Shown here: positions 1-28,656 of the stretch, one piece after another
Numbering within the stretch: the stretch's first letter is position 1
How the letters are laid out: each line of letters begins with the position of its first letter
NCBI GenBank assembly: GCA_021790005.1
Contig: JAJYIP010000003.1
Location: 1 to 36,261 of the forward strand
Reading direction: 5' to 3'
Source: a bacterium
GTDB lineage: Bacteria; Patescibacteriota; Saccharimonadia; Saccharimonadales; UBA4665
Length of the DNA stretch: 36,261 nt
The notes under the pieces: model-generated
Told to the model about the DNA's origin: nothing
What the model saw: only the letters and a program-made list of their open reading frames with translations
Databases searched by the model: none
Program-made: the position numbers and the translations under genes

Positions 1-3000
1 GCGCAATTAGTAGTACAGTTATTCACCGATGGAGATATCGAGGAATTGGCATACATTAGTCCGTTACACGACTGCCAGGTTCCATCCACGCCGCACCTAA
101 ATGATCTGGTAGTCGCGTTATAATACATCGCCCCGTCAACTTCCGTCGGATCGTTCGAAGTTCCGGTTTCGCTATCCAAAACCAGTAGCGACGGTGTAGC
201 TTCACCAGTTGCACCGGCGCCGATATCCACCCTCATATTAGCCGTATCCACAGCCAAAACATTTACACCGCCAGGTGTCTGAACCTGTACAGCAAAAGTA
301 GACGTCGTGGAAGGCTTGACTAACAAATTACCAGTACTGCTAATACTGTCTACCAAGTTACCGGCTCCGTCTAATGCGTTAAAAATATTACCAGTCCCGG
401 AGGGATTAGCCTGCAACACGCCAGCCACAGACCCCGCAGTGGCCGCTTGAATATTAAAGTTGGCATCTTGAGTAACGGTAGAGTTGGCAATCACCGATGA
501 ACTCGAATACGCCGCTATTAGAGCACCAATGGTCAGCGAAGATGTGGCAGAAGCCTGCGTTGCCGTCGGCTGAATAGTGGTACTGACGGAATTATTATAT
601 ATAACCTGGTGGGAAGTTAGGCTGGTATTGGCGTATGTAAAGCCAGGCGTTGTACCAGCTGAAATAGCCGATCCAGCTGACGCATAACCAGCATAAAGGT
701 CCTTGCTACTTTGCGGTGTTAGACTTGGGTAAGTAACCGTAGTACTGGTACTGTTATATAGCGTCGCGCTTGAGTCAACTACCCAGGAACCGCTAGTGCT
801 ACCAGTAGAAAACTCCATGGCAGATAAGTCATTTGGATTACCGGTCGTGCCGCCAAACGTAACAGTAATCGTACTGGCGCCAGTCGCCGTAACAGTACCT
901 TTCCACATTTCAATCGTAGTCGTACCGGATCCGGATCCGCTTGAAGTACCGGTAACTTTAGTCCAAGAAGTTACACCACCGCCGCTAATACTGCTAATGG
1001 TACCATTACCATTTGCCGGATTTGAGAATAACACCATCAGATCATTTAAAGAAGCTGGGTCAACGGCTAGCGTAGTCACGCCATTACCGCTATTAGACCA
1101 CCTATTAACGTAATTAATGGCCACGCTGGTCACCTGATTGGCGCAAGACGAGAAGACAAGCTGGTTGGCATTCGCGGCGCTAGTGGAAAGACATTCACCA
1201 GGGGCGGGAGTAGTCGTAGGGAGCGTAAGGGTATAGCTTGAACCGACAGCTGTCGGGGCGGCAATACCTATAGAGTTGTTGTTACCGCTGTCATTAAACA
1301 GCAATTGACCGCTGACTACATTAGACGCTCCAAGAGTCAGCCCACTGCTAGCATTAAATGCTGCGATGTTGTTACCGCTTGAATTTCTTAGGTCCAGTAT
1401 ATCGGCGGTGCCACTGCTGGCCGCTTGAATAACGCCGGCAACACTACCAGCCGTAGCAGCTTGGACATTAAAGTTAGCTTCCTGGGTCGAGGTCGTATTG
1501 ACTATAACCGACGTACCAGTGTAGCCAGCAATATCTGCGGCAATATTTATATAGTAACCGGCCGTACTCTGGGTGGCCGTCGGATATGTAGGCGTGCCGC
1601 CAGTTACCGCAGTATTATAAGCCACCTGATCTCCGGCAGTAGTAGCTACGTACGAATAGCCAGGAGTGGTGCCAGCGCTCATTGTATACTGCGCCCAGCT
1701 GTAACCGGTGTATAGTTCGCTTGAGTTAGTAGGCGTTAAAGACGGGTAATTTATAGCTGTCGAGGTGGTTGTGTTGTAGTTAAAGCCGCTGTTATCTATT
1801 GCCCAAGTACTGTTAGCGCTGTGCATCGTAAATTCTTCGGTCACCAATTCATTGGTCCCAGGTGTCGCAGAGTAAGTTACCGTCACGCTAGAGGCGCCCA
1901 CGGTTGTTACCACGCCGCGCCACATTTCAATCGTGCCACCGTTCGCTCCGTTAGCGCCACTGGTAACCTTGGTCCAGGTGTTTACACCGCCACCGCTGAC
2001 TTGTGTGACGTTAACATTATTGGTCGCATGAGAATAAAAAATTAAAAGATCGCCAACGTTTACGGGAGATATGGATAGTGTCGTCACGGCAGCACCGGAA
2101 GTATTCCATTCGCCAACATAAGAAATAGATCCAGCCGACACCTGAGTCGCACATGAAGTATATATCAGCTGGTATGCATTACTGGGACTAGTACCAAGAC
2201 ATAATCCGGCCGTTGGAGCATTACTGGGTAAAGTTAGTGTGTAGCTAGCAGCAATAGCCGAAGGAGCAGATAAGGCGATTGAGTTAGCGTCCGTATTGTC
2301 GAAAAAGTTAATATTGCCAGCAATCGTACTAGCGGAACCAAGCGCAACCTGGTTAGTGGCCGTATTGACACTCAAAACAGACTTGGCGGTATTGTTTTGA
2401 ACCTGGAAAGCACTGGCAACGTTGGCTGAGCTCTTAAACGTCGCTGCTCCGTTGTATCCGATACTGGCTACGTTATTACCATTCGAGTTCATGAGATCCA
2501 AAATATCTGCTGTACCACTACCAGCCGCTTGCAATACGCCGGCTACCGAATTAGCGGTAGCTGCCTGGACATAAAAATTAGCCTGCTGAACAGATGTAGA
2601 GTTGTTAATTGCCGTACTGGTGACAAAAGCCGTAAGTATCGCACCAAGGGTATTGGATTCGCCGGAACTAGTTTGGTTGGCCGTCGGCTGATAGGAAGTA
2701 TTGGCATAAGTCGAGCTGTTATATGTTATGACGTTATGCTGGGTACTGGTAATAATGTAATTGAACCCGGTAGACGTGCCGGCTGTCGCCGGTGGATTTT
2801 GAACTTGTCCGTACCCAATATACAGTTCGTCACTTCCTATCGAGCTAAGACTGGGGAATGTAACTGCCGTAGAAGCGGAGTTAATTTGTGCGCCAGCACT
2901 ATCCAAACCCCAAGTCGTTGAAGCGTTAACACCAGCCGCCGTAAATTCGGTAGCAGTTATTTCCTCAGACCCTGGAGCGGCCGAATAAGTAACCGTTATA

Positions 3001-4571
3001 GTAGACGCGCCAGCTGCGGTTACAGTACCATACCACATCTCTACTCGATTGACAGTTCCGTTGCCGTTATTGACTATGGCTTTTGACCACGAGCTGACTC
3101 CGCCACCGCTAATCCCGGTTACAGTTACACCAGCCGTCGGAATTTGAGTAGTCAAAACAACTTCATCGCCAACCGAGGAGGGCGAAATGGTCAGCGTATT
3201 GGTAGCGTTAGCATCCCACTCCGCCACTTCCGTAATACTAGCGTTAGTATTGGAACAGCTGGCAAAAATAAGCTGGGACGCTGAAGAGCTGCTGGTTTCA
3301 ATACATAGTCCAGGGTTTGGCGCCGAACTCGGCAATGTTAAAGTATAGTTTGCATTAGTAGCCGTACTGTTGAGTGTAATGGCGTTAGCGGTTAAGCTGT
3401 TATTGAAAGCTAGTGAGCCGTTAACCAGTCCTGATTGACCAAGCGCAACCTGGTTATTAGCAGTATCGACGCCCAGAACATGATTACCGCTACTGTTATT
3501 GACGTCTAAGGCCGAGGCTGAATTAACGCTAGTCTGCAAAACTGCCCCGGGAGCAGTCGTGCTACCGTTGAGCGAGGCTGTAATACCTTCAGCTTGAAGT
3601 GTAAGTGCTGTTGTTTTGCTACTATTACCAATCGCTACGGCGGACGCATTCTGAGCCCCGATATTGATCGTGCCATTAGTGCCCGTGCCATTAGCTAGAC
3701 CAGCGTCGATGCTGACGTTACCGCCACTACCGTTGGTTCCGCCCCCGGTGCCGCCGGCTAAGTTCAAATTACCTCCCGCCAGAGCCACGGTACCGGTTCC
3801 GGCCGTACCGGCAGATATATTCAAAGTCACACCGGCAGTTGAGGCTGCAGCCGTAGCTACGGCTATATTGTGCGTGGTCGTATTGGCCCCAAACGTCAAA
3901 TCCCCATTATTACCAACCAAAAAAGCGTCCGAGCCAGCAGCTTGCAGATCCAGCAAATCTCCCGTGCCGGTCTTGTTTATGTATATGCTGGCATTAGTCG
4001 AAGCGTCTGTCTGGACACCCTGTCCAATTTGAACGAATTGCGAGCTAGCTATGCCATTAAGCAGTTGAGAATTAAATGCATAAGGGGCACTCGTCATGGG
4101 TTGCATTGGCAACATCTCTCCGTCCGGGCTACAAGCACTAAATGTCGTACAAGTCGTAGATGTACCCGCGACATTCATTGACAGCCACAGTGTACTCTGG
4201 TTCCAGTCAACACCAGTACCAAACGGCGTGACCGACCCCAACTGCACCGAGAAGAAGCCATTGACAACCTTAACACCTTGGGTGTTATAGTTTAAATAAT
4301 CTTCGGTCCAGAGCAGCGTTCCGGCCGGTGTTCCGGTCGTATCTCCGGCACTTTTTCCATCTCCATTAGCATAGATTTTAAACTCGATGTTGTAATAACC
4401 GTCCGGTACGGTAGCGCCCTGTGAATTAAGTAATCGACCCTGGAATTCAACCGTTTGGTTAATGCCTGTAGCCGCTACGGCGTGACCGGATAAAAACGCA
4501 ACAAACAGCAGGGTTGCCAGCGCAACCAACTTTAAATACGGCAACCGGTGTCCTAACAGACGCTCTCCCAA
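1..4571 (-). CDS. Giant secreted repetitive surface protein, C-terminus truncated by the left window edge
   Basis: Minus-strand frame read from ~4571 (TTG start proposed; no in-frame ATG at the N-terminus, in-frame TAA upstream) and consistent with the frame at base 1. N-terminus LPYLKLVALATLLFVAFLSGHAVAATGINQTVEFQGRLLNSQGATVPDGYYNIEFKIY. C-terminal part DSETGTSNDPTEVDGAMYYNATTRSFRCGVDGTWQSC, a motif I associate with CPR surface proteins. Three internal protein-level repeats. The ORF is missing from the supplied track, probably because it runs off the edge. Confidence 0.85.
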   Translation of the reverse strand, partial: MGERLLGHRLPYLKLVALATLLFVAFLSGHAVAATGINQTVEFQGRLLNSQGATVPDGYYNIEFKIYANGDGKSAGDTTGTPAGTLLWTEDYLNYNTQGVKVVNGFFSVQLGSVTPFGTGVDWNQSTLWLSMNVAGTSTTCTTFSACSPDGEMLPMQPMTSAPYAFNSQLLNGIASSQFVQIGQGVQTDASTNASIYINKTGTGDLLDLQAAGSDAFLVGNNGDLTFGANTTTHNIAVATAAASTAGVTLNISAGTAGTGTVALAGGNLNLAGGTGGGTNGSGGNVSIDAGLANGTGTNGTINIGAQNASAVAIGNSSKTTALTLQAEGITASLNGSTTAPGAVLQTSVNSASALDVNNSSGNHVLGVDTANNQVALGQSGLVNGSLAFNNSLTANAITLNSTATNANYTLTLPSSAPNPGLCIETSSSSASQLIFASCSNTNASITEVAEWDANATNTLTISPSSVGDEVVLTTQIPTAGVTVTGISGGGVSSWSKAIVNNGNGTVNRVEMWYGTVTAAGASTITVTYSAAPGSEEITATEFTAAGVNASTTWGLDSAGAQINSASTAVTFPSLSSIGSDELYIGYGQVQNPPATAGTSTGFNYIITSTQHNVITYNSSTYANTSYQPTANQTSSGESNTLGAILTAFVTSTAINNSTSVQQANFYVQAATANSVAGVLQAAGSGTADILDLMNSNGNNVASIGYNGAATFKSSANVASAFQVQNNTAKSVLSVNTATNQVALGSASTIAGNINFFDNTDANSIALSAPSAIAASYTLTLPSNAPTAGLCLGTSPSNAYQLIYTSCATQVSAGSISYVGEWNTSGAAVTTLSISPVNVGDLLIFYSHATNNVNVTQVSGGGVNTWTKVTSGANGANGGTIEMWRGVVTTVGASSVTVTYSATPGTNELVTEEFTMHSANSTWAIDNSGFNYNTTTSTAINYPSLTPTNSSELYTGYSWAQYTMSAGTTPGYSYVATTAGDQVAYNTAVTGGTPTYPTATQSTAGYYINIAADIAGYTGTSVIVNTTSTQEANFNVQAATAGSVAGVIQAASSGTADILDLRNSSGNNIAAFNASSGLTLGASNVVSGQLLFNDSGNNNSIGIAAPTAVGSSYTLTLPTTTPAPGECLSTSAANANQLVFSSCANQVTSVAINYVNRWSNSGNGVTTLAVDPASLNDLMVLFSNPANGNGTISSISGGGVTSWTKVTGTSSGSGSGTTTIEMWKGTVTATGASTITVTFGGTTGNPNDLSAMEFSTGSTSGSWVVDSSATLYNSTSTTVTYPSLTPQSSKDLYAGYASAGSAISAGTTPGFTYANTSLTSHQVIYNNSVSTTIQPTATQASATSSLTIGALIAAYSSSSVIANSTVTQDANFNIQAATAGSVAGVLQANPSGTGNIFNALDGAGNLVDSISSTGNLLVKPSTTSTFAVQVQTPGGVNVLAVDTANMRVDIGAGATGEATPSLLVLDSETGTSNDPTEVDGAMYYNATTRSFRCGVDGTWQSCNGLMYANSSISPSVNNCTTNC
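430..3440 (-). repeat. Three tandem ~1 kb protein-level modules inside the giant surface protein
   Basis: Each module has (F-N/D ... ASYTLTLPS.AP.PGLCL.TS..NA.QLI..SC) then (W...G...TTL.I.P...GDL...F....N....I.SGGGV..W.KV......G..IEMW.G.VT..GASTITVTY) then (YPSLTP..S.ELY.GY) and (ANFNVQAATAGSVAGV.QA...GTADILDL.NS.GNNVA). Approximate positions 3440-2430, 2335-1370 and 1320-430. Confidence 0.8.
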
Positions 4572-4690
4572 ACCTTTACCCCGATGTTTGTGCTTATTTT
4601 TCGCTGTACCCTTAAATTATCCTTACTGGATTTTCCCCTCACGAAGTACACTATTAACTATAAGCGTTTAGTGAATATATTCAACCTGTT

Positions 4691-5692
4691 TTAGCGGATT
4701 GGATGTGGACGAACACCAAGTGTCGGCGTCGTGCTAATTACTCTATCCATCAACTTCTTTTCACGAACTTCGCCCATCCAAAAACTTATGACCAGGGTCG
4801 CCGCTATGGCATACAGTGGCCACAAGACCAAAATTTTGCCCGTCAAAGAATTACTGCCACTACTTGATGAACTGCTGGCAGTGGCCGCACTTGGTTGACC
4901 ATTAATAATTGCTGCAACCGTCAAAAAGGCAATATGCTGCTGGGCATCACTACCCTGAATTATAATTTTATAAACTCCCGGTTTAGCGTAAGCATGGCTA
5001 GCATTTATGGTCGTATTATTGCTTGATGGCAACACCTGGTCCTGGTTATCGCCCCATTGCACATTAATCGCGAACGGACCATTACCGCCAATTATATTAA
5101 TTGGTACGTTCAGGGTCTGTCCCGGAAATACCCCGCGGTAGACCGCATCAGTTTCTAAGATTAGCTGGGTGTTAGTAAAATTAACGTTACTTAGTGAGGA
5201 TATTAGTGGTGGCTGAGCGGTATAGGTAACATTTACGCCACCCGACGACGGACCAGCCTGGTTGAGGACGTCATAGTCTACCGCCGTCAGCTTATTTTGG
5301 CCGTACAAAAGATCGATTTGCACAGAGAAATTATTATTGTTGTCACAGGGAGTTGAGCCGGCGAAAATTCCATTCTTAAAAATTTCCACTAAAGTATTCT
5401 TTGGACAAGTCCCGCTCACAGTTATAGGGCTGGAATTAAACGAGGTAAGATTGCTTGGTGATGTAATCGTGGCGCCGGTTGTTGGTGGCTTTTCTGGCAT
5501 TGTACCACTTAAACTGACCGACTCGGCCTGAGGCGGTGGCGTTGTTGCAAACGCAAATGACGATACGGTCATAGCAGCTAAAACAATGCCGACAAAAAAT
5601 ACCATTATGGCTAATGGCAAATAAGAGGTGTATTCATGCGGGCGAAGTCGTCCGCTATGATATCTGCTTTTTAATTTAGCTTTTACCGCCAT
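4691..5692 (-). CDS. Membrane-anchored surface protein with Ig/PKD-like domains
   Basis: N-terminal TM (LPLAIMVFFVGIVLAAM), Ig-like segment (ITSPSNLTSFNSSPITVSGTCPKNTLVEIFKNG), PKD-like segment (WGDNQDQVLPSSNNTTINASHAYAKPGVYKIIIQGSD), C-terminal TM. Confidence 0.7.
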   Translation of the reverse strand: MAVKAKLKSRYHSGRLRPHEYTSYLPLAIMVFFVGIVLAAMTVSSFAFATTPPPQAESVSLSGTMPEKPPTTGATITSPSNLTSFNSSPITVSGTCPKNTLVEIFKNGIFAGSTPCDNNNNFSVQIDLLYGQNKLTAVDYDVLNQAGPSSGGVNVTYTAQPPLISSLSNVNFTNTQLILETDAVYRGVFPGQTLNVPINIIGGNGPFAINVQWGDNQDQVLPSSNNTTINASHAYAKPGVYKIIIQGSDAQQHIAFLTVAAIINGQPSAATASSSSSSGSNSLTGKILVLWPLYAIAATLVISFWMGEVREKKLMDRVISTTPTLGVRPHPIR

Positions 5693-5716
5693 TGGCGTTT
5701 AACCGTTGATTAAGTT

Positions 5717-6721
5717 TTATTTTGATCTGCTTTTTTGGGCTTTACTCAGTATGTAACGATTATACCGCCGTATACCATAGCGTAGCAAGAAAAATCCACC
5801 GATCAGCACGATAAGCCAAATACCTATGAGCTTGACTGGAATCACCCAAAAAACAACCGTCGCAACTATCGGTTTATTACCGTTGCCGTAGGATAGGCTC
5901 ATGCTCGCCGTATAACGGCCAAACATTATGCGGTTGTTAATATTAACCGGTTGAAGATTTTCGCTGTATAGTCTTTGGCTTGACGGCAAAATATTGCCCT
6001 GTGGCCGATTAATGTTAGTAACATAAAGTTTTTTGTTGAACATGTCTGTAACGGTTAGAGTTCCGGTCGGTATGACATGAACATTACCGTTATTTTTTAG
6101 TAGCTCGTTAAATGTCAGGGGATCTGATTGAAAGAAGCTAGATGTGTGTTTATTTTGAGACACGTAGAACTGGGACAGGCTAAGATTTTCAATCAGTTTG
6201 CCGCTAACCGTCAAAAGTATGAGCGCGCCCAAGCTGGCAGATAAGGCCACGTGGTTTCCACCGCTGTTTGGTGGTGGTGTTGCCGTAAACCTAATCACCC
6301 CATAATGTCCGCCCGGATTAGCATCCTTAGGGATATTAATCGGGATATTTAAAATTTTCATTTGCTGAGGTTGCAAAAGCAAATTGGGTACATAGCCGAT
6401 AAACGACTTCAATGAATACGGATTGGATGGATCGTTACCTAAAACTATCGCCGGCGTTCCACTGTCGCCTTTTGCAATAAAGTCATTAGCCGTACCGTTA
6501 ACTATTAAGGGAGACTTTGAAATGTCTCTAATGTAGATCTTCGCTGTTATAGTTTCGCCAGGATTACCGCTGAGATTCAATAGCGGGGGCGCTATTTCCA
6601 GCGCCTCGCCACTACCCTTGTTGGACTGAGCGGTGGCAGCTGCGGCAATTACGGGCAATAGCTGGGTACTTAACAGTACACTGGCAAGCAATACTAATGT
6701 TATAGATCTGATTGATTTCAT
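5717..6721 (-). CDS. DUF916-like (WxL-interacting-protein-like) membrane protein
   Basis: Signal peptide, LEIAPPLLNLSGNPGETITAKIYIRDISKSPLIVNGTANDF ... LLLQPQQMKILNIPINIPKDANPGGHYGVIRFTATPP, C-terminal TM (VKLIGIWLIVLIGGFFLLRYGIRR) with a basic tail. Confidence 0.65.
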   Translation of the reverse strand: MKSIRSITLVLLASVLLSTQLLPVIAAAATAQSNKGSGEALEIAPPLLNLSGNPGETITAKIYIRDISKSPLIVNGTANDFIAKGDSGTPAIVLGNDPSNPYSLKSFIGYVPNLLLQPQQMKILNIPINIPKDANPGGHYGVIRFTATPPPNSGGNHVALSASLGALILLTVSGKLIENLSLSQFYVSQNKHTSSFFQSDPLTFNELLKNNGNVHVIPTGTLTVTDMFNKKLYVTNINRPQGNILPSSQRLYSENLQPVNINNRIMFGRYTASMSLSYGNGNKPIVATVVFWVIPVKLIGIWLIVLIGGFFLLRYGIRRYNRYILSKAQKSRSK

Positions 6722-6727
6722 ATTTTA

Positions 6728-7867
6728 CTAATACGTTGCCGTACAAATGTAAGTCAAAGTCGTGGTATATGTACCAGCTGGCTGATTACCCGGAACGTTA
6801 ACTATGTATGATACAGTATAAATCTGCGCATCGGTAGGACCATTTGTTCCTGTACTCGAGCTGTTAGCTACGGTGTCGCCAGTATTAAATTTAAATGTGT
6901 TAGCCGTATTATAGCCCGCTAAAGGCAAGCCGGTATAATTAGAACCAGCCGTAGTACCCGATGTTGGTGTTAGTGCCGTACCAACTGCTGGAGTGGTATT
7001 AACTTCTAAGTTCATGCCGAATTGCGGAGAACCAATAATCGAGGTTGTAGCTGTAGTCATAGCGGTAATTGAATTCGTACCCGAAGTTAGTGTTGTACCG
7101 TTCACCGTTATAGCGTAACCATGATTAGCATTGGTTGATGCCGCCATTTGCGACGTGGCCGTGGCGGTAGCGGTTGGCGAGAATAGTTGATTAAACGTCA
7201 CATTACCAGCGGTAGCGGTCGTACAATCCGGAATACCACTAGTTGTACTAACAGTTGCGCCGGTACAGAAAATAAGCGATTCAGGCATGGTACCAGTTAA
7301 CGTGATCGGATTAGCGGTTGAGGCTGCTACATTACCTGAATCAGTTACCGTACCGGTCGCATTAGCAGTCGCGTAAGTTGTAATTCTAACGTAGAAAGTA
7401 GTATTGGTTGCCGTCGGGTTAGTTACACTATCCAATTGAACTGTATATGGTGTTGCCGCCACTGGAGTTACAGCCGTAGCTGAGCTTATGTATGGCGAAC
7501 CATTAGTAGTATTGGTGATGGTAAACCCAGAAAAAAACGAAGATGTGCCGGTACCTACCGTAGCGGCGGTAGTAACCAACCCGGTAGGTAGCGTGCAGGT
7601 ACCGTCTGCAATCGTACAATATTGAAACATGACAGATTGGATAGCAGTAGTACTGGCAAGATCAAACGTAAACAAATGATCTACGACACCGCCCGGATCA
7701 GATCCACCAACAACACCAACAGACTGCAAAGTAAGGCTTCGGTTGGTTATCTGGGCAGCGTGTGCGACTGGAGTATGTGCAAAACTAAGTATCGACAGTC
7801 CGAAGACTAAGACTATAAACCCGGTAATAATTCTGTATAGGTATCGCTTCCTCACGAACATGTACAA
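6728..7867 (-). CDS. Secreted surface/pilin-like protein with WxL-like C-terminal strand, paralog of 7929..9059
   Basis: N-terminal signal/TM, Thr/Ala-rich, C-terminus YIVNVPGNQPAGTYTTTLTYICTATY; long near-identical stretches with the next gene. Confidence 0.75.
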   Translation of the reverse strand: MYMFVRKRYLYRIITGFIVLVFGLSILSFAHTPVAHAAQITNRSLTLQSVGVVGGSDPGGVVDHLFTFDLASTTAIQSVMFQYCTIADGTCTLPTGLVTTAATVGTGTSSFFSGFTITNTTNGSPYISSATAVTPVAATPYTVQLDSVTNPTATNTTFYVRITTYATANATGTVTDSGNVAASTANPITLTGTMPESLIFCTGATVSTTSGIPDCTTATAGNVTFNQLFSPTATATATSQMAASTNANHGYAITVNGTTLTSGTNSITAMTTATTSIIGSPQFGMNLEVNTTPAVGTALTPTSGTTAGSNYTGLPLAGYNTANTFKFNTGDTVANSSSTGTNGPTDAQIYTVSYIVNVPGNQPAGTYTTTLTYICTATY

Positions 7868-7928
7868 ATATTAGCATGAGCGCGATTACACTGTCAAAAA
7901 TCTTACATTTATTTTTATACACAGTTTA

Positions 7929-9059
7929 CTAAAAGGTTGGGGTACAGATGTAAGTAATTGTTGTCGTGTAAGTACCGGCCGGCTGATTACCCGGGACGTC
8001 AACGATATAGGTAGTTGTATAGATCTGGGCATCCGTACCACCGGCACCACCGTAAGCACTGTTGGCAACCGTATCACCGGTATTAAACAGGTATTTATCG
8101 GCTGTGGCATAATTAGTGGTCGGCTCGCCCTTATAGTTAACTCCGTCAGAAGCTGGCGTGATGGCAGCACCGGGGGCCGGAGTTGCCGTGGCGGTAGTAT
8201 TAGCTACCAGATTAATGCCAAACTGAGACGTACCTAGTATTGGGGAGACTGGGGATGCACCGACAATCGCCGTAATCGTATTTGTACCCGAGGTAAGCGT
8301 GGCGCCGCTAGCGGTTATGACAAAGCCACTACCGGCATTGGTAGAAGCGGCCATCTGTGAAGTAGCCGTAGAAGTATAGGTTGGCGAGAATAATGTAGTA
8401 AAGGCAACCGTACCGGCTGTAGCGGTTGTACAATCCGGCACGCCACTGGTTTCACTGACAGTTGCACCGACACAGAACACCAGGGATTCGGGCATCGTTC
8501 CGCTCAGCTGTATTGGTGTAGCGGTTGAAGCCGCCACGTTTCCAGTATCGATGGCAGTTCCGGTTGGGGTAGCAGCCGAAAAGGTAGATATTCTGACGTA
8601 AAAAGTAGTATTCGTCGCCGTCGGGTTAGTTACACTATCGAGCTCAATCTTATATGGCGTTGCCGTGGTGGGAGTTACGGCCGTAGCTGATGAAATATAC
8701 GGGGCTCCATTAGTAGTGTTGGTAATTGTAAAACCAGAGAAGAAGGTTGACGTATTGGTACCAACCGTGGCGGCCGTAGTCAAAAGACCAGTCGGAGTCG
8801 TACAGGTCCCATCAGCAGTAGTACAGTAAAGTAACTGGACGGACTGAATCGCACTAGCCGTGGCTAAATCAAACGTAAATAAATGGTTCACTACCCCGCC
8901 GGGATCAGAACCACCGACAGTAGCGGTATTTTCTAGAGTTAAGCTACGACTTGTAATCTGAGCGGCATGAACCGTTGCCGGCAGCATAGCCACAACCAAG
9001 CCCCAAATCATTAATAAGCTTGTCGCAACATAGAGTGATTTTATAAACTTTTTAACCAT
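7929..9059 (-). CDS. Secreted surface/pilin-like protein, tandem paralog of 6728..7867
   Basis: Shares SLTL...GGSDPGGVV.HLFTFDLA, TTAATVGT.TS.FFSGFTITNTTNG.PYISSATAVTP and the C-terminus YIVDVPGNQPAGTYTTTITYICTPTF. Confidence 0.75.
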   Translation of the reverse strand: MVKKFIKSLYVATSLLMIWGLVVAMLPATVHAAQITSRSLTLENTATVGGSDPGGVVNHLFTFDLATASAIQSVQLLYCTTADGTCTTPTGLLTTAATVGTNTSTFFSGFTITNTTNGAPYISSATAVTPTTATPYKIELDSVTNPTATNTTFYVRISTFSAATPTGTAIDTGNVAASTATPIQLSGTMPESLVFCVGATVSETSGVPDCTTATAGTVAFTTLFSPTYTSTATSQMAASTNAGSGFVITASGATLTSGTNTITAIVGASPVSPILGTSQFGINLVANTTATATPAPGAAITPASDGVNYKGEPTTNYATADKYLFNTGDTVANSAYGGAGGTDAQIYTTTYIVDVPGNQPAGTYTTTITYICTPTF

Positions 9060-9145
9060 TTTTTTTGTTTTTAGCGTTTATGCTTACTAGGGTGATATTA
9101 CCAGTAACATTAATAGAGTGTCAATAGTTTTTATCAGGCGAAGAG

Positions 9146-9895
9146 TTAATAAGTTGCGGTACAGATTATATTTTGTGTAGAAGTGTACTGTCCGCCCGGT
9201 GTGATATCCGTCACATTGACAATATAACTAATCGTATAAATGATATTCCCCGAACTCTGCGCACCCTGCGCAATAACATCGCCACTGACATACCTGTAAC
9301 TGTTAGGTGTGTTGTAGTTCGTAGCCGCCGCGCCACCGGCGCCAAATTGACCAAAGTTAGGGTTGGCGCCAAAAGTAGTCGGAAGGGTGTTGGCAACTAA
9401 ATTGATGCCGTACTGATTGGTACCGATCTGGGGACTGCCGTTGGTAGCCATTGGTGCTATTTTGAAGCCGCCCGAGTTAGTGGGTGGAGTACCGAACAGT
9501 TGGACAATATAACCGTAGCTTGTGTAGTCTGAGACTTCGAATTGGGATGTCGCCGTAGCTGTTGAGGTGGGCGAGAAGGTTGTAAAACTCGGGTTACCAG
9601 TCAAAATGCCAATTGATAGTGCCGGGTCGTTAGTGGTCTGGTGACCAGCTTGAATTTGTACGGCTGTCGGTGCCGATGAAGTACCAACACCAATAATGCC
9701 GCCGGATTCTTGAGCCTGATAATTAGCCGACTGACTCTGCAATAACCCCGTACCACCCAACGATGGCTCAATTAGTTGGTAGTTAGTTGAACTACTAGCA
9801 GCCGAGGCGGCTATACCGCCAAAGGCAACTACCGTCCATGCGCCCGCAAACAGCACATAAACCATCTTTTCTAGTCGTCTTCCCAATCTGCTCAT
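9146..9895 (-). CDS. Secreted surface protein, third distant member of the same family
   Basis: Signal peptide, STATATSQFEVSDYTSYGYIVQLFG, QIGTNQYGINLVANT, C-terminus YIVNVTDITPGGQYTSTQNIICTATY. Confidence 0.7.
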   Translation of the reverse strand: MSRLGRRLEKMVYVLFAGAWTVVAFGGIAASAASSSTNYQLIEPSLGGTGLLQSQSANYQAQESGGIIGVGTSSAPTAVQIQAGHQTTNDPALSIGILTGNPSFTTFSPTSTATATSQFEVSDYTSYGYIVQLFGTPPTNSGGFKIAPMATNGSPQIGTNQYGINLVANTLPTTFGANPNFGQFGAGGAAATNYNTPNSYRYVSGDVIAQGAQSSGNIIYTISYIVNVTDITPGGQYTSTQNIICTATY

Positions 9896-19895: not shown

Positions 19896-20669
19896 TTAAG
19901 CATGAGCTCCGCAGTGAGTGCAAAATAAACCATGCTGGGAGTTAATGACGCCGCAGTGGCGACAGTAATTATTGTTACCCACAACCGCTAGACCATCTTG
20001 CCTGTCAAGTTGTTTGGCTCGAAAGAAGAATATAAACAATCCGACGGCCAGCATGACCGTGATCAAGACTGACATAAGTGTCAGGTATGGATTTAAAGAG
20101 AATAGGCCAAAGTCATAAAAGCCATGCAAGACTATAGCGGCCAATAAAGCTAGGCCGGTCTTAACTAGCGACTCATTATCAACTTTCGCTCGACTCAAAA
20201 AATATCCCACCATAACGGTAGTAGAAGCATGAAATATGGGATCAAGCAACAAGCGCTGCAGTCCGGTCGTGGCGCCAAACTCAATGCTATAAAGAATATT
20301 TTCTGGAATACCAAACGCTAGGCCGGCAATAGCAAAAAATATAATTCCATCAACATGGCTACGAAAAAATTTGCGCTTATATACCAACAAGGCTGTAGGC
20401 AGAAACTTGGCGCACTCCTCGATTGCACCAACCCCGAGACTGGCCCGCAAAATAACATAATATGGCTGATGCACTACCAGTGACAAGTCTTTGGCTGGAA
20501 TCAACCAGCCTTCTAAAAAGACGGCTGCGATCATACCGGCAATACCAAGTCCAAATACCGCCCAAAGATAACCTACGGGCTCTTTCTTGCCCTGATCATA
20601 CTTCAGTAAGTACCATGTTAAAGCTGCTCCCAGTAACAAAAAACTGCTAATAACGGCAACTAATACCAT
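19896..20669 (-). CDS. PrsW-like intramembrane metalloprotease with C-terminal zinc ribbon
   Basis: GAIEECAKFLPTALLV, HVDGIIFFAIAGLAFGIPENILYS, LLDPIFHAS, HGFYDFGL; C-terminal CRHCGVINSQHGLFCTHCGAHA. Confidence 0.82.
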   Translation of the reverse strand: MVLVAVISSFLLLGAALTWYLLKYDQGKKEPVGYLWAVFGLGIAGMIAAVFLEGWLIPAKDLSLVVHQPYYVILRASLGVGAIEECAKFLPTALLVYKRKFFRSHVDGIIFFAIAGLAFGIPENILYSIEFGATTGLQRLLLDPIFHASTTVMVGYFLSRAKVDNESLVKTGLALLAAIVLHGFYDFGLFSLNPYLTLMSVLITVMLAVGLFIFFFRAKQLDRQDGLAVVGNNNYCRHCGVINSQHGLFCTHCGAHA

Positions 20670-22114: not shown

Positions 22115-22822
22115 TTAGGAGTTCTTGGCTTTGGCAACAAGAGCAATGTACGCCAAATAGTTGATAAAGTCTGCGGGATTTATGCCGGCTTTTTCTAACT
22201 CTGACACTAATGCGTCCATACGGGCTATATAATCAGGGGCGTAGGCTTCGAGTCTCTTTTGTTTATTTTCGTACATTTTATTGTCCGCTAAAGCCAAAAG
22301 AGCATCAAAGGTCATTGCGTCTTCACGATTTGCGGCAGCCACCCCTAAAGAAATTCCGGTTTTGACATCATTAAAAACTATTCTGCCATCGTCGCTTGAG
22401 ACAGACTCATTCACCGATGCCTTAATTCGTTCCGTAATAATAGCCATATCGCTTCGATCTTTAACTAAAGCCATGGCGGCAAATTCATCGCCCCCCAGTC
22501 GAACAACTATATCAGCATTTGAGCGCATTGAACCGGCGGCAATCTCAATAATTTTATCGCCGGCATAGTGACCAAGCTGATCATTGACTAATTTTAAGTG
22601 ATCGACATCGCCAAATATTAGCCCGACAATATGTCCATCTTCGATAGCCCGGCTATATACATCAGCCCCGAACACCTGAAAGCGGGACGGTTCCATTCGG
22701 CCGGTTTGCAACTCAGAGCCATACTTATTCCATTCTTCTTCCGTTATAAATTGGGTTATAGAAGGAACTTCGCGTGGCTTTTCGACATTATTCATAAGTG
22801 TATATTCTAGTACAAATTGCAA
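22115..22822 (-). CDS. GGDEF-domain protein (putative diguanylate cyclase)
   Basis: FGDVDHLKLVNDQLGHYAGDKIIEIAAGSMR ... VVRLGGDEFAAM; intact GGDEF. Confidence 0.9.
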   Translation of the reverse strand: MQFVLEYTLMNNVEKPREVPSITQFITEEEWNKYGSELQTGRMEPSRFQVFGADVYSRAIEDGHIVGLIFGDVDHLKLVNDQLGHYAGDKIIEIAAGSMRSNADIVVRLGGDEFAAMALVKDRSDMAIITERIKASVNESVSSDDGRIVFNDVKTGISLGVAAANREDAMTFDALLALADNKMYENKQKRLEAYAPDYIARMDALVSELEKAGINPADFINYLAYIALVAKAKNS

Positions 22823-22830
22823 TTTTTTGT

Positions 22831-23166
22831 TTAAAATAGGTCCTCTATTATATTCATGACGGCAAAACTAATCTGATCTAATATAATCACACCATTGTGC
22901 ACCACACCAGTCCATTGGTTTTCTTCAAGCCAGCTGGCACCAGCACGTCTAGCTCTATCAAGATTACTTGGAGCAAGCATATCCAAGCTCGACATCGTAT
23001 CGTCGGCCCAATGAATCGCCATAAAATAAAGGTTCTGGTTTTTAGTTGCAATTAGATCAATTTCATATTTTGAGCGCTTGAAATTAGTTTCAAGTATTTG
23101 AAAACCTCGCATCTCCAAGTACTGGCGGGCAGATTTTTCTGCAGCCTGTCGTTTATGACCAGTCAT
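22831..23166 (-). CDS. YraN/UPF0102-like protein with altered nuclease motif
   Basis: AAEKSARQYLEMRGFQILETNFKRSKYEIDLIATKNQNLYFMAIHW resembles YraN, but the FVEVK segment is FMAIHW. Confidence 0.6.
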   Translation of the reverse strand: MTGHKRQAAEKSARQYLEMRGFQILETNFKRSKYEIDLIATKNQNLYFMAIHWADDTMSSLDMLAPSNLDRARRAGASWLEENQWTGVVHNGVIILDQISFAVMNIIEDLF

Positions 23167-24047
23167 CGTTTTTTGGATATTAAATTCTTATGAAGCGGTC
23201 TCGCGAGAGTAGCGATCGCAATACCAACTAAGACAACAATCGCCACCTCATTGGACTGCGCCGTTGTCCCAGGCGATTGATTTATATTAGTGGGCTGTAA
23301 CTGCCAGATGGTTAGCGATACGAGCTTAGCATTCAAGCCATTTAAGGTTATGCCGACATCCACAATATGCTTGTTAGTTACGGCCAACACGATGGTCTGT
23401 CCAACCCGCAACGTCAATGGTATGCTGCCGTTATCAGTAGAAACTACTATCTTAACGGTTGGGTTATGGTTTGAATCATTAATCGAGGTTACGGTTAGGG
23501 TATGGTATTCAGGCGTGTTATTAGAGTTACCTACACCTGTATCGACCGGAAAACTGTAGACTTCATTGACTTGCGCAACAATAATTGAGCTTTGCTCTAC
23601 ATTATAGCTGCCTATTGGAGTTAGGTTATTGGGCAGATCAATAATTGGTGGTAATGAGCCGACAGCGGGCAAAGTGTTGGGATTGGTACTAGCCTGACTA
23701 CTGCCCAGCTGTTCGCCACTTATGATTTTTGGAGTTATAACAATATGTCTTGGTTGGCTGACAATTAATTGTACCTGGTTGGATTGCGGGCTAGCATTGG
23801 ATGCATTGTTAGCGCCGGCTACTCTATGCGTACTTGAAGAATTTGTCTTCACCTGAACTGGCACACCACAGGCTTGCGGAGTCACATATACAATCTGATT
23901 CGTACCGTTATTTAAAAGCGTAAATATGCAATTCAACGGCAGAATCTGCTGCGTAAAAGTATCATTAATCCCGTCGGCTTGAACCACAGCAAAATTCAAA
24001 CAAGATATTGCTATAGCTAATATCAATATTAGTTTTACTTTTCTCAT
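23163..24047 (-). CDS. Secreted protein with C-terminal TM anchor
   Basis: N-terminal signal peptide, Asn/Thr-rich body, C-terminal NEVAIVVLVGIAIATLARPLHKNLISKKR. Confidence 0.65.
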   Translation of the reverse strand: MRKVKLILILAIAISCLNFAVVQADGINDTFTQQILPLNCIFTLLNNGTNQIVYVTPQACGVPVQVKTNSSSTHRVAGANNASNASPQSNQVQLIVSQPRHIVITPKIISGEQLGSSQASTNPNTLPAVGSLPPIIDLPNNLTPIGSYNVEQSSIIVAQVNEVYSFPVDTGVGNSNNTPEYHTLTVTSINDSNHNPTVKIVVSTDNGSIPLTLRVGQTIVLAVTNKHIVDVGITLNGLNAKLVSLTIWQLQPTNINQSPGTTAQSNEVAIVVLVGIAIATLARPLHKNLISKKR

Positions 24048-25273
24048 AAAGCAGTTAGCGTAATGGTTAGAGCCAGACTATACGAACCGGCCGGCTGTAA
24101 AGATGGAACCGTCTGACTAAGCCCTATGTTGGTTATATCCCAGTAGCAGTAATAACTGGCTGCTGAGCTAGCAGCCGTTAAAGTCACCGGTGTCGTTCCG
24201 GTCATAGCCGTATTTGCACCCGCGCTAATGCCAGAAGTTGTGCAACCATACTCAGGACTAGACTCGGGAGTGATGATTTGCGCTGCTGGAGAAATGGTCA
24301 ATTGCCCGGAGGTGCAACCGGCCGGACTACCAGCCGCATTGTTATAGGCGTAGGTTTGGCCACCACTATCCGACCAAGCCGAAGAAGAGGCGGCAATCGT
24401 CAGGTTCCAGCCGAGATTATCTGCTGGGGTAGTATTGGTCACTCTAACTTGTTCGGAACTAGTACCCAGAGTCCCGGTTGATGTCTGACATGCAAACGCC
24501 TGATTGAGCGATGTCATACCGACGGTCGGGGTGGCGACTGAAGCACCGGTTGCATCAACAATGTCGCCGCTAAATATTGGCGTAGGTGCAATTCTAAATG
24601 CCGCAATCTGCCCGAGCCAGCTTGAACCACTAGCTACGCTAGCTGACGTCGAATAACTGCTTGGACTGCTAACACTAAAATAAGCACTGCCGTACGCCAT
24701 GCGGGCAGACGGCTTGCCACTAATGCTTGAAGATATGATTTGCGTAAAAGAGTTAGTCCAGCCGGTCGGCGCCGTCGTACCATCTGAGGTTACGCTGGCT
24801 AATAGAAGATCGTTATAGTTATTGTTAGTTAATGAACCGGAAGATGCGGTTGCCGTCGTACCAGAAGACGTGACCGAATTGACAACATCCAATGGCGTAA
24901 CATTCTCAATGCCACTGAATTCAAATATTTGCACCGGCTGAGAGGTGCCGGCACTAAAAGTACACGCTATCGTCGTTTCGCCGCCGGCGGCTATTTTATA
25001 GAAAATACCTTGAGACGGATTGACCGATTCATTTTTAGCCGTTGAGAATCCGCTTGGTGACGATATCGTGGCGGTTACGTTTGTCGAACAAATTGCAACC
25101 AGTAGGTTGCCCGCGGTTGCTGCCGTGGAAAATGTTGCACTGCCAGCGGTACCAGAATTACTTTGCACCAAAGTCGTAGCGGCAAAAACTCTGTTCGGCA
25201 TCATAAACGTGAGTAGCGACACTACCAACATAACAGCGGCGGCGGTCAGTGCGCTGCGGCGGAAACAACCCAT
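24044..25273 (-). CDS. Secreted surface protein with C-terminal WxL-like domain
   Basis: Signal peptide; C-terminal VRVTNTTPADNLGWNLTIAASS (WxL-type motif) and terminal strand QPAGSYSLALTITLTAL. Confidence 0.65.
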   Translation of the reverse strand: MGCFRRSALTAAAVMLVVSLLTFMMPNRVFAATTLVQSNSGTAGSATFSTAATAGNLLVAICSTNVTATISSPSGFSTAKNESVNPSQGIFYKIAAGGETTIACTFSAGTSQPVQIFEFSGIENVTPLDVVNSVTSSGTTATASSGSLTNNNYNDLLLASVTSDGTTAPTGWTNSFTQIISSSISGKPSARMAYGSAYFSVSSPSSYSTSASVASGSSWLGQIAAFRIAPTPIFSGDIVDATGASVATPTVGMTSLNQAFACQTSTGTLGTSSEQVRVTNTTPADNLGWNLTIAASSSAWSDSGGQTYAYNNAAGSPAGCTSGQLTISPAAQIITPESSPEYGCTTSGISAGANTAMTGTTPVTLTAASSAASYYCYWDITNIGLSQTVPSLQPAGSYSLALTITLTAL

Positions 25274-25277
25274 ATAG

Positions 25278-26441
25278 CTAGTCCTTATTGCTGGGCGGTA
25301 TCTTAATTACTTGGTCTTCTTTTAGACTATACGGAGGCTTCATATGGTTAGCGGTAACGATTTTCTTCCAACTTATATTGCTATTTTTCGCAATTTTTTC
25401 AACCGTATCACCATGCTTCACGCTATATGATTGCCATTTTTTATTAACAGTACGCTTATGTTTGTTGCGTCTGGACAGCCAAACAATTAACCAAACAATA
25501 GCCACGATTACGACAGCTTCAATAAATGCAGCTAATGGCTGCGGGGTTGCAAAAAACATCTTAGAATTTAGCGAGATCTGGGCTAGATTAGAGTGAGGCT
25601 GCAAACCAAGTTCGGTGTTGGGGTCGCTATTGTATTTTACGATTGCTCGAGCCATATAGAGACCACCCCAAAAAGGATGCGCTACATTATAGCTGTCAGA
25701 CATATCGCTGTTTGGCAAAACTGGCATTGTACCTTCTTTAACCGAAACTGGAGCAAACCCCAGGATTGAGACAAGCTGTAATCTCAGCGAAGCATCTAGG
25801 GAAACATTGCCTTGGTTTTCAATACTTGGCGTAACCTGGTATTCACCATTCTTAGTGGCGGTAACGGTCAGTGATTTTATACTGAGTTTTTTAACAAGCT
25901 TCCCGGGAATGGTCACTACCACTCTAATGGCCGATCTAAAGCTCAAAACAACGCCGTTTTGGCTAGATTGTGCGGCGGTTTGTGATTGGGCCTGTAAAGT
26001 TACGCACCCATCATGCTCACCCACACTTATCTGATTTGAATCTGGCACGGTAAGTGTAAAAGGAACTATCGTGCTTGTGTAGGCTTTTAGGGTTACCGAG
26101 GTGGTTTGCAATTTTATCCAAGCGCCAACATCAGTTTTTGCTTCAACCGCCTGTTTACAAGTAAACTGACCGCCAGTAGCCAATTCGGAATCAACCGCAT
26201 CAAGCGTGATGACTTGCTGCTTGTTAGTATCATTTTCAACTTTTATGCCATTAGTTGCACTTTGTCCAGGTTTTAATTGAAAGATAAAAATTGATTGCGA
26301 TCTAGGATTGGCCGGATTCGGATAAGCCGGACTGCCGCCGATGCCGCCATAGTTAATGGCATATGCTTCAGACAAAAGCAACAGACTTGCCGAGAATAGT
26401 ATAGCTATAAATGTCCCTGCCAGCCTCTTCATATGTTCCAA
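25278..26441 (-). CDS. DUF916-like protein with TM and C-terminal LysM domain
   Basis: SIFIFQLKPGQSATNGIKVENDTNKQQVITLDAVD (DUF916-like); TM; C-terminal YSVKHGDTVEKIAKNSNISWKKIVTANHMKPPYSLKEDQVIKIP (LysM). Confidence 0.72.
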   Translation of the reverse strand: MEHMKRLAGTFIAILFSASLLLLSEAYAINYGGIGGSPAYPNPANPRSQSIFIFQLKPGQSATNGIKVENDTNKQQVITLDAVDSELATGGQFTCKQAVEAKTDVGAWIKLQTTSVTLKAYTSTIVPFTLTVPDSNQISVGEHDGCVTLQAQSQTAAQSSQNGVVLSFRSAIRVVVTIPGKLVKKLSIKSLTVTATKNGEYQVTPSIENQGNVSLDASLRLQLVSILGFAPVSVKEGTMPVLPNSDMSDSYNVAHPFWGGLYMARAIVKYNSDPNTELGLQPHSNLAQISLNSKMFFATPQPLAAFIEAVVIVAIVWLIVWLSRRNKHKRTVNKKWQSYSVKHGDTVEKIAKNSNISWKKIVTANHMKPPYSLKEDQVIKIPPSNKD

Positions 26442-26484
26442 CTTTAGCTTATAAATGCGTTATTAGCTAGTTATTTATCTGGTT

Positions 26485-27150
26485 TTAGGTATGGCTTAAG
26501 GTAATGGTCATTGGCAGGGTATATGATCCGCTTGGCGTCAAGGACGGAACAGCTTGACTTAAGCTGATGCCTTCTACATAACCTTCCCAAGCCGTTCCAG
26601 CACTATCGCTCAGCAAGGTAACACTGGTAACTGTAGTCCCATTGTAAACAGCTGAAGCACCTAAGGTTACAGTTGCAGCGTTGGCCGTGCAAGCGCTATT
26701 ACAATCGTTGGTAATCGTTCCGGCGGCGGGATTAACCGTTAGGTCCCCGGATGTGCAGCCAGAACCAGCAATATTGTTGTATGCATATGTATTGGTGCCG
26801 TTGGTCCAGGTTGCAGACGTGCCACCAGTAGCGGCAAGGGCAATATTCCAGGTAGCAATTCCAGACGCCAGATCAGTAACATTAATTAGATCATTGGCAT
26901 CACCTAGCGTACCAGTACTGGTTTGACATGAAAAGCTATAGTTTACGGGTGAAAATGCTACTGTTGGCGCAGCGACTGGGGTAGTGTCACCAGTCTGGTT
27001 AATGCTGGCCGTTAGTGTACCGGCATTAATGGTCTGGTCAAAAGTTGGGGTCAAACTCGCGTATGTAATCGCACTGGGCGATAGCATCATTAGCAACATA
27101 ATTAACATAGCCGATGCTAGTTTCAGTATCTTATTCACTCTACCCTCCAC
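26485..27150 (-). CDS. Secreted WxL-like domain protein
   Basis: Signal peptide; LINVTDLASGIATWNIALAATGG and terminal TPSGSYTLPMTITLSHT; paralogous to the C-terminal domain of 24044..25273. Confidence 0.65.
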   Translation of the reverse strand: MEGRVNKILKLASAMLIMLLMMLSPSAITYASLTPTFDQTINAGTLTASINQTGDTTPVAAPTVAFSPVNYSFSCQTSTGTLGDANDLINVTDLASGIATWNIALAATGGTSATWTNGTNTYAYNNIAGSGCTSGDLTVNPAAGTITNDCNSACTANAATVTLGASAVYNGTTVTSVTLLSDSAGTAWEGYVEGISLSQAVPSLTPSGSYTLPMTITLSHT

Positions 27151-27256: not shown

Positions 27257-27511
27257 CTAAAGCTTTTTATTGAGCTGATTGATACTGTTATTTAATTGTT
27301 GTATGCCCTTGAGACTGTTATTTATTTCCGTCACCTGTGAACTCAAAGTGTTGTATTTGGAGTTTAGTGCGGTAGATAAGCTACGGATCGACATTGCTCC
27401 CCAGATAAAAATTGTTAATATAACGCCCAGCATTAGAACGGCTAACGTAACCATAACTGACATGTAACCGTGATAAAGTCTCGATTTGGCGCGTAGCCCT
27501 TCTTCGTTCAT
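27257..27511 (-). CDS. Small TM plus coiled-coil protein
   Basis: TM (VMVTLAVLMLGVILTIFIWGAM) followed by a heptad-like Leu/Ile/Asn-rich segment. Confidence 0.55.
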   Translation of the reverse strand: MNEEGLRAKSRLYHGYMSVMVTLAVLMLGVILTIFIWGAMSIRSLSTALNSKYNTLSSQVTEINNSLKGIQQLNNSINQLNKKL

Positions 27512-27624
27512 ATGCTTAAGTCCTCCTGGGATTGATTACAATACCGCGCTACTGTTGTCTCTAATATAAGAATAAAGCTTGTTAATGGTCAGTTAGTTTA
27601 ATTACGACTCAACGCCAAACAATA

Positions 27625-27663
27625 AATAAAGAGCCGCTTCAAACGCTGAGGCGACTCTTTATT
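27625..27663. terminator. Intrinsic terminator-like hairpin, possibly bidirectional
   Basis: ATAAAGAGCCGC..GCGACTCTTTAT inverted repeat just downstream of 27257..27511's upstream region and beyond the 3' end of 27677..27973. Confidence 0.6.
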
Positions 27664-27676
27664 AACAAAACCCTAT

Positions 27677-27973
27677 CTAGAAACCGGAAGTTTGCGTACT
27701 TAGTTGACTACTGTCGGTTGCGTTGCCGCTTATACCGGCGCTATTGAGTGTCTGTAAGGCACTGCTAAGCTGTGACGTACTATTAACTTGCGGAGCCGTA
27801 AACGTGGTTGGTGTGCTCGAAGACGTGGTTGGTGTGCTCGAAGACGTGGTTGCCGTTTGACCGGAAGAGACGCGGTTACTGTAGACGTAATAGCCTACAG
27901 CCGCTACGCCGACTAGAAGCACTAATGCCACCAACAACTCGATGAGTGCAAATCCAGTTTGATGCTTCTTCAT
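27677..27973 (-). CDS. Type IV pilin-like (prepilin) small protein
   Basis: MKKHQTGFALIELLVALVLLVGVAAVGYYVY: prepilin peptidase-type G|FALIE motif followed by a hydrophobic helix. Confidence 0.75.
   Translation of the reverse strand: MKKHQTGFALIELLVALVLLVGVAAVGYYVYSNRVSSGQTATTSSSTPTTSSSTPTTFTAPQVNSTSQLSSALQTLNSAGISGNATDSSQLSTQTSGF
27802..27852. repeat. 21-bp tandem repeat within the pilin-like gene
   Basis: ACGTGGTTGGTGTGCTCGAAG at 27802-27822 and 27823-27843, plus partial ACGTGGTTG at 27844-27852; encodes repeated SSSTPTT. Confidence 0.9.
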
Positions 27974-28656
27974 TACTGTTTACCCCCCTTTGTTGATGTA
28001 GTTTGGGTTGATCCCTGATTAGCTGATGTATTCTGAGTGGTACCAGACGACTGACTGCTGGACGATAGCTTAACCCCGTTGGCGGTTGCCACAGCCACGA
28101 TCAGATTCTTAACTGACGTTCTAAATGCCTGTAGGTCCGATATCTCGGTCTTAAGATAGCTCTGGAAAGAAGCCACCATACCCTTTGGATTGCTGGCGCT
28201 ACAGCTAAAGCTGCTATTGGTTTTGAGTGTACCGAAATCTGTTTCGGCTTGAGCTTTGGCAGTATTCATAGCCGCTACCAATTGGCTATAGTTAGCAACC
28301 GTTTTGCCCTGCTTAACATAAAGCGCTTCAACTCTACTCGCAATCGTAGCAAACAAGCTAATCTGATTTTGAGCTCTGGTATCAATACGGTTGATGATAT
28401 TTTTAATCGCTACTTCTCTATTTTTACAAGCTAGAAGCTGGCCCTTAGCTAATCCAGCCTGCCCCTTTTGGCTTGCCTGTGATGGAGTAGTCGAGTGATT
28501 TGCTGCTGACTGATTTGGCTGCACTGGGGCAGTCGAACTAGTTGCTAAAGCGTGAGCGTTAGCTTGAGGCGGCAAGGCAAACACAGCACTACCACTTAGC
28601 ATCACCAACGCCAAGGTTGAACTTACCAGCCCAATCTTGTTGATATGTTTTCGCAT
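27973..28656 (-). CDS. Hypothetical secreted protein
   Basis: Signal peptide; helical body (INRIDTRAQNQISLFATIASRVEALYVKQG); Ser/Thr/Gln-rich tail; directly upstream of the pilin-like gene. Confidence 0.6.
   Translation of the reverse strand: MRKHINKIGLVSSTLALVMLSGSAVFALPPQANAHALATSSTAPVQPNQSAANHSTTPSQASQKGQAGLAKGQLLACKNREVAIKNIINRIDTRAQNQISLFATIASRVEALYVKQGKTVANYSQLVAAMNTAKAQAETDFGTLKTNSSFSCSASNPKGMVASFQSYLKTEISDLQAFRTSVKNLIVAVATANGVKLSSSSQSSGTTQNTSANQGSTQTTSTKGGKQ

Follow-up and report, generated by a model that had tools for sequence, protein, structure and literature searches.

The protein encoded by gene B is, with a probability of about 60%, a membrane WxLIP that holds the two secreted proteins encoded by genes A and C outside the cell and carries its LysM domain inside, perhaps on lipid II. 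The topology of B (a membrane anchor with the LysM inside) and its display role outside are well supported, and the locus, a relative of the WxL/DUF916 surface kits known from gut bacteria, probably holds adhesin-like proteins on the outer face of the membrane. Since the LysM appears to point inward, display at the surface may be linked to the synthesis of the wall inside the cell.

Gene order and genomic setting

The source genome (724 kb in 38 contigs, 87% complete) contributes the window, that is, the whole stretch of 36,261 nucleotides that was analysed, as contig C12. Genes A, B and C form an operon on the minus strand, located at 24044-27150 and followed by the gene for membrane protein D (Table 1); B and C are separated by 4 bases, and C and D overlap by 4 nt. 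A GTG at 27138, preceded by the Shine-Dalgarno sequence GGAGGG, is the likelier start of gene A and gives a protein of 217 aa. The interval of the first-pass annotation also took in gene D, which was absent from its description; several relatives (L039, L040, L041, L102 and L106) likewise encode a D-like protein after C or B.

Table 1. Coordinates of the display genes and of their features within the window
Feature	Position	Strand	Description
Gene A	26485..27150	(-)	Small secreted WxL-like protein, signal peptide and one domain, 221 aa
Gene A, first WxL-type motif W-N-I	26842..26850	(-)	ATWNIALAAT, W at 26850
Gene A, terminal strand MTITL	26497..26511	(-)	Site of WxL motif 2; W absent
Gene B	25278..26441	(-)	WxLIP-like; signal peptide, DUF916, second beta domain, TM, LysM; 387 aa
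Gene B, DUF916 / WxLIP_PGBD (PF06030)	26034..26312	(-)	29.5 bits, Pfam cutoff 27.3
Gene B, transmembrane helix	25473..25535	(-)	
Gene B, basic flank RRNKHKRTVNKKW	25434..25472	(-)	Follows the TM; cytosolic according to the positive-inside rule
Gene B, LysM (PF01476)	25296..25427	(-)	42.3 bits, cutoff 20.9; predicted cytosolic
Gene C	24044..25273	(-)	Secreted, 409 aa; the large one of the two WxL-like proteins
Gene C, C-terminal WxL-like domain	24047..24568	(-)	W-N-L at 24401-24409; LTITL at 24056-24070
Gene D	23163..24047	(-)	Signal peptide and TM protein; shares 4 nt with C

Beyond gene D, the same strand carries a UPF0102 (YraN-like) gene, which overlaps D by 4 nt, and then a GGDEF gene (together 22115-23166); both possibly share one transcript with the display genes. 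A few kb downstream of the display genes, the minus strand encodes a PrsW-family intramembrane protease (19896-20669, 87.8 bits) carrying a zinc ribbon at its C-terminus. The region upstream of A (27257-28656, minus strand) comprises an 84-aa TM protein, a 227-aa secreted protein and a protein of 98 aa in which a type IV pilin N-methylation motif scores 23.7 bits. The promoter scan gave no more sites than were found in shuffled sequences; terminator-like sites numbered 11, with 5.9 expected. The genome also contains a full-length MurG candidate, which scores 170 bits, under the model cutoff of 250.

A second DUF916-type locus was identified at positions 3-9895 of the window, on the minus strand. 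It includes a gene with a weak WxLIP_PGBD match (5717-6721, 15.9 bits) and a TM, and three secreted proteins (6728-7867, 7929-9059 and 9146-9895) that have a similar terminal strand in common and no WxL. Also part of the locus are a TM protein and another secreted protein, which is large and extends past the contig start. Similarly to the A/B/C locus, this second locus and its relatives pair secreted proteins ending in the terminal strand with a DUF916-like TM protein; unlike it, they lack both the LysM and the W-x-L motif, and DUF916 is only weakly detectable. Among relatives this type is commoner than the LysM form (G000:C25 and L044-L053).

WxL-like domains of A and C

The first-pass annotation had described two secreted proteins with WxL-like motifs and like terminal strands, and between them a DUF916-like protein with a TM and a LysM domain; A, C and B correspond to this description, all on the minus strand. 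The C protein is composed of an N-terminal beta domain, the display part, and of a C-terminal WxL-like domain with the motif GWNLTIAAS (W at 24409), and ends with SYSLALTITLTAL; the A protein ends with SYTLPMTITLSHT. The C-terminal domains of the two proteins are paralogous, with 45% identity. WxL motif 1 is kept in this domain type, W being present in 36 of 37 homologous domains and followed by L, I or V, and the residue at W-8 is N, not D; at motif 2, I or L stands in place of W, so that two W-x-L motifs, as in PF13731, are not found. Since the domain lacks both the Pfam match and the second motif that formally mark PF13731, it is named WxL-like; its layout is that of WxL proteins, i.e., a C-terminal domain of approximately 160-190 aa in small and large secreted proteins.

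No Pfam family matched A or C, direct detection of WxL by Pfam and NCBIfam was also empty, and the Pfam WxL family (PF13731) had no match in the whole genome, even at E=10; searches of PDB sequences returned no solved WxL or A/C relative. WxL identity was assessed by profile-profile alignment (hhalign) with column-shuffled controls, using reference WxL domains taken from Firmicutes plasmids. Direct comparison of the A/C domain with Firmicutes WxL, small against small, gave 50-89% with scores of 33-45 (shuffle maximum 22), with both motif regions in register; with the large Firmicutes subset by itself, A/C gave no alignment, the score being near zero. PF13731 matches are present in 12 of 380 genomes of the phylum, five of them over the cutoff, and nine same-phylum proteins with Pfam WxL matches were aligned as an intermediate set. 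This set aligned at about 97% with Firmicutes WxL and at 96.7% with the A/C domain (score 65, shuffle maximum 17.5).

Because the intermediates match both ends and motif 1 is retained, the conclusion from sequence comparison that the A/C domain is a divergent, distant WxL-type relative is well supported. The domain could instead be a surface beta-sandwich of other descent, with a DUF916 protein simply as its neighbour, as the missing Pfam WxL match and the moderate direct score, near zero with the large Firmicutes subset, would allow; this reading is already disfavoured and very improbable, because the intermediates align at about 97% with Firmicutes WxL and with A/C alike, motif 1 and the terminal strand are in register, and the pairing of a small and a large protein and the synteny with DUF916 fit the definition of a WxL cluster.

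A 13-row profile of the A/C domain, searched against the 380 genomes of the phylum, found matches in 17, and nearly all the strong ones had exactly two copies, one in a small protein (about 212-260 aa) and the other in a large one (about 360-2450 aa), both ending in the domain. All 14 genomes with strong matches contain a B-type gene; B adjoins A and C in each of them except G173, which has A-B and C on two contig ends. Thus the pattern is not due to chance, since the paralogous domain recurs as a small and a large pair around B. LysM ends every complete B protein of the A/C type. In 11 further genomes, the B-type gene has between one and three LysM repeats and lies mostly beside small proteins of the Pfam WxL type and sometimes beside a PMT-like glycosyltransferase; counted from the table of B-type genes, the LysM-fused form is present in about two dozen of the 380 sampled genomes. 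A B relative without LysM (G074:C58, 49.6 bits to PF06030) lies beside three proteins that match PF13731 weakly, below the cutoff. A contig named Ca. Peregrinibacteria (L056) carries A and B homologues; it was the one named relative in a contig search with a single B sequence as query, and an alignment query would reach further. Viral contigs gave no relatives.

At the WxL/B-LysM loci of other genomes (L160-L165, L169 and L170), the WxL protein and B are separated by multi-TM genes. A match of one of these to the PMT_2 mannosyltransferase family (31 bits) suggests glycosylation of the displayed proteins. Three large proteins in the WxL position (L169:1296-3398, L170:917-3097 and L171:1658-3196) have repeated GWT-type, tail-collar-like N-terminal segments, and had no Pfam match.

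The B scaffold and the orientation of its LysM

On sequence grounds, B is a true DUF916 protein, the family now being named WxLIP_PGBD. Besides the Pfam match (Table 1), its domain 1 aligned with domain 1 of Firmicutes WxLIP proteins at 96% (hhalign score 61, maximum of 15 over 40 shuffles) and had no match with their second domain. DUF3324 (HBD, PF11797) was not detected in B by Pfam, and the second domain of B alone gave 2-7% by hhalign; the alignment of full-length B with WxLIP extends into the DUF3324 region at 97%. The C-terminal transmembrane helix that characterizes WxLIPs is present in B. AlphaFold2 models from shallow alignments of 2-3 rows (the window and L056) were poor, with a pLDDT of 51 (A) and 47 (B). 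Profile similarity was found for both families named in the first-pass annotation: its assignment of a WxL/DUF916-type locus holds for the DUF916 of B, for the divergent WxL C-termini and for the canonical gene set, and lacks a Pfam WxL match.

The same annotation had proposed that the LysM fusion anchors the scaffold directly to peptidoglycan, of self or host; this part is contradicted by the predicted topology, and no finding bore on the peptidoglycan of a host. The LysM of B lies C-terminal to the TM, separated from it by a strongly basic flank, and the order of signal peptide, ectodomain, one TM and LysM by itself places the LysM inside. Net charge was compared over the 15 residues after and before the TM in 27 B proteins (five others were left out, and in L103 the TM escaped the hydropathy-based finder), and was higher after the TM in 25 of them (mean 3.9 vs 0.2). 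As a control, small TM-LysM proteins of the same phylum, which were retrieved with the same LysM profile and have the same LysM subtype as B, showed the reverse bias in 13 of 16 cases (2.7 before, 0.6 after); the difference between the two groups has a Mann-Whitney p of 2e-7, not corrected for relatedness.

A natural fusion points in the same direction: in L110 (G116:C44, 6183-8282, plus strand), DUF916-TM-LysM-LysM-TM-LytR_C form one 699-aa protein, whose LytR_C (PF13399) scores 34.8 bits (cutoff 22.2). In LCP proteins, LytR_C forms the outer domain. Several B proteins have long K/R tails at the end, and the LysM of B is richer in K/R than five other LysM domains of the same genome (8.2 vs 2.2). 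The charge bias and the L110 fusion thus predict a cytosolic position for the LysM of B, through which anchoring to the wall is unlikely.

Most bacterial LysM domains act outside the cell. This general rule, together with the good Pfam match, the intact GDT motif of the window copy and the occurrence of the same subtype in small YneA-like TM-LysM proteins, which are outside by their charge pattern, would favour an extracellular LysM that anchors the scaffold to the bacterium's own or the host's peptidoglycan. A signal peptide and a single TM, however, leave the C-terminus inside, the basic flank follows the TM in nearly all homologues with a bias opposite to that of the small proteins, the L110 fusion adds a TM and LytR_C beyond the LysM, and K/R tails end several B proteins; the LysM is thus placed, by prediction, on the inner side of the membrane, and an extracellular position is improbable.

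Possible ligand of the LysM and relation to known systems

In the proposed mechanism, which follows that of Firmicutes, A and C would bind through their WxL-like domains to the DUF916 ectodomain of B, whose helix would lie in the cell's own membrane and hold both proteins on its outer face, with the variable N-terminal part of C exposed as an adhesin-like module. The LysM, predicted from charge bias and natural fusions to face the cytosol, may then bind either lipid II, a wall precursor that contains GlcNAc, or proteins of wall synthesis, which is the weakest step of the scheme, and this binding would couple surface display with the sites of wall synthesis or position it there.

In Bacillus subtilis, the cytosolic LysM of SpoVID sequesters lipid II (PMC10659427). 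B resembles SpoVID in having a C-terminal LysM at the cytosolic side of the membrane, as predicted here, and in a possible lipid II readout; unlike B, SpoVID belongs to the sporulation coat and has neither DUF916 nor a TM, and the homology is limited to the LysM. YneA and the small TM-LysM proteins (PMC13396833) also have a LysM beside one TM, and those from CPR genomes are of the same LysM subtype as B, but in these proteins the LysM that comes after the TM faces outward, and the charges around the TM are distributed the other way.

The threonine of the GDT motif is kept in 10 of 18 homologues, the B of the window among them. In YneA, the substitutions D46A and T47A lowered peptidoglycan binding (PMC13396833), which makes a glycan ligand plausible for the window B, though not in general; the loss of the threonine in the other 8 homologues makes it uncertain. 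B could thus be a membrane WxLIP as proposed, with a LysM that has lost glycan binding and only dimerises B or binds a cytosolic partner protein. This alternative, which is unlikely though it deserves consideration, is in line with the loss of the threonine alongside a different signature (W, N and P-Y) that is near-invariant in the B subtype, and with the binding of a protein, SpoVK, by the SpoVID LysM; the retained GDT of the window copy argues against it, as does the location of the conserved N and P-Y loop, which by inference from PMC4083421 sit at the sugar contacts of LysM.

The canonical WxL cluster consists of small-WxL, WxLIP and large-WxL genes (PMC10599100), the pattern of small and large WxL proteins being described also in PMC9772566, and this set is present as A-B-C here and across the phylum, if WxL-like domains are counted. 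As in the Firmicutes (Csc) clusters, small and large secreted proteins share a C-terminal domain, the DUF916 protein has a C-terminal TM, and WxL motif 1, a terminal amphipathic strand and a large protein with a variable N-terminus are found; AlphaFold2 models of the Firmicutes proteins predict a DUF916 strand that completes the WxL sandwich (PMC10599100). Unlike in those clusters, the WxL domain is below Pfam detection and has lost the second W, DUF3324 is not recognisable, a LysM is added after the TM, the phylum is a different one, and no LPxTG protein was noticed beside the locus.

WxL/DUF916 clusters have been described almost only from Firmicutes, and insertion of the WxLIP helix into host membranes has been proposed (PMC10599100); the helix, basic flank and LysM of B, followed once by a further TM and LytR_C, argue instead for the bacterium's own membrane. 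A literature search outside subscription journals found no paper linking WxL or DUF916 to Patescibacteria, Saccharibacteria or CPR. The kits described here recur across the phylum, with the LysM on the scaffold in the two dozen or so genomes counted above. Tentatively, and with considerable doubt, the WxL scaffold of Patescibacteria/CPR can be viewed as a transmembrane coupler, capturing WxL adhesins outside and reading a wall precursor, e.g., lipid II, inside through its LysM; if this were true, display would be tied to active wall synthesis, and the WxLIP helix would anchor in the membrane of the bacterium and not in that of its host. The locus represents a testable case of a membrane-tethered LysM that would act on the cytosolic side, and is a candidate for the attachment system of bacteria that are thought to live on hosts.
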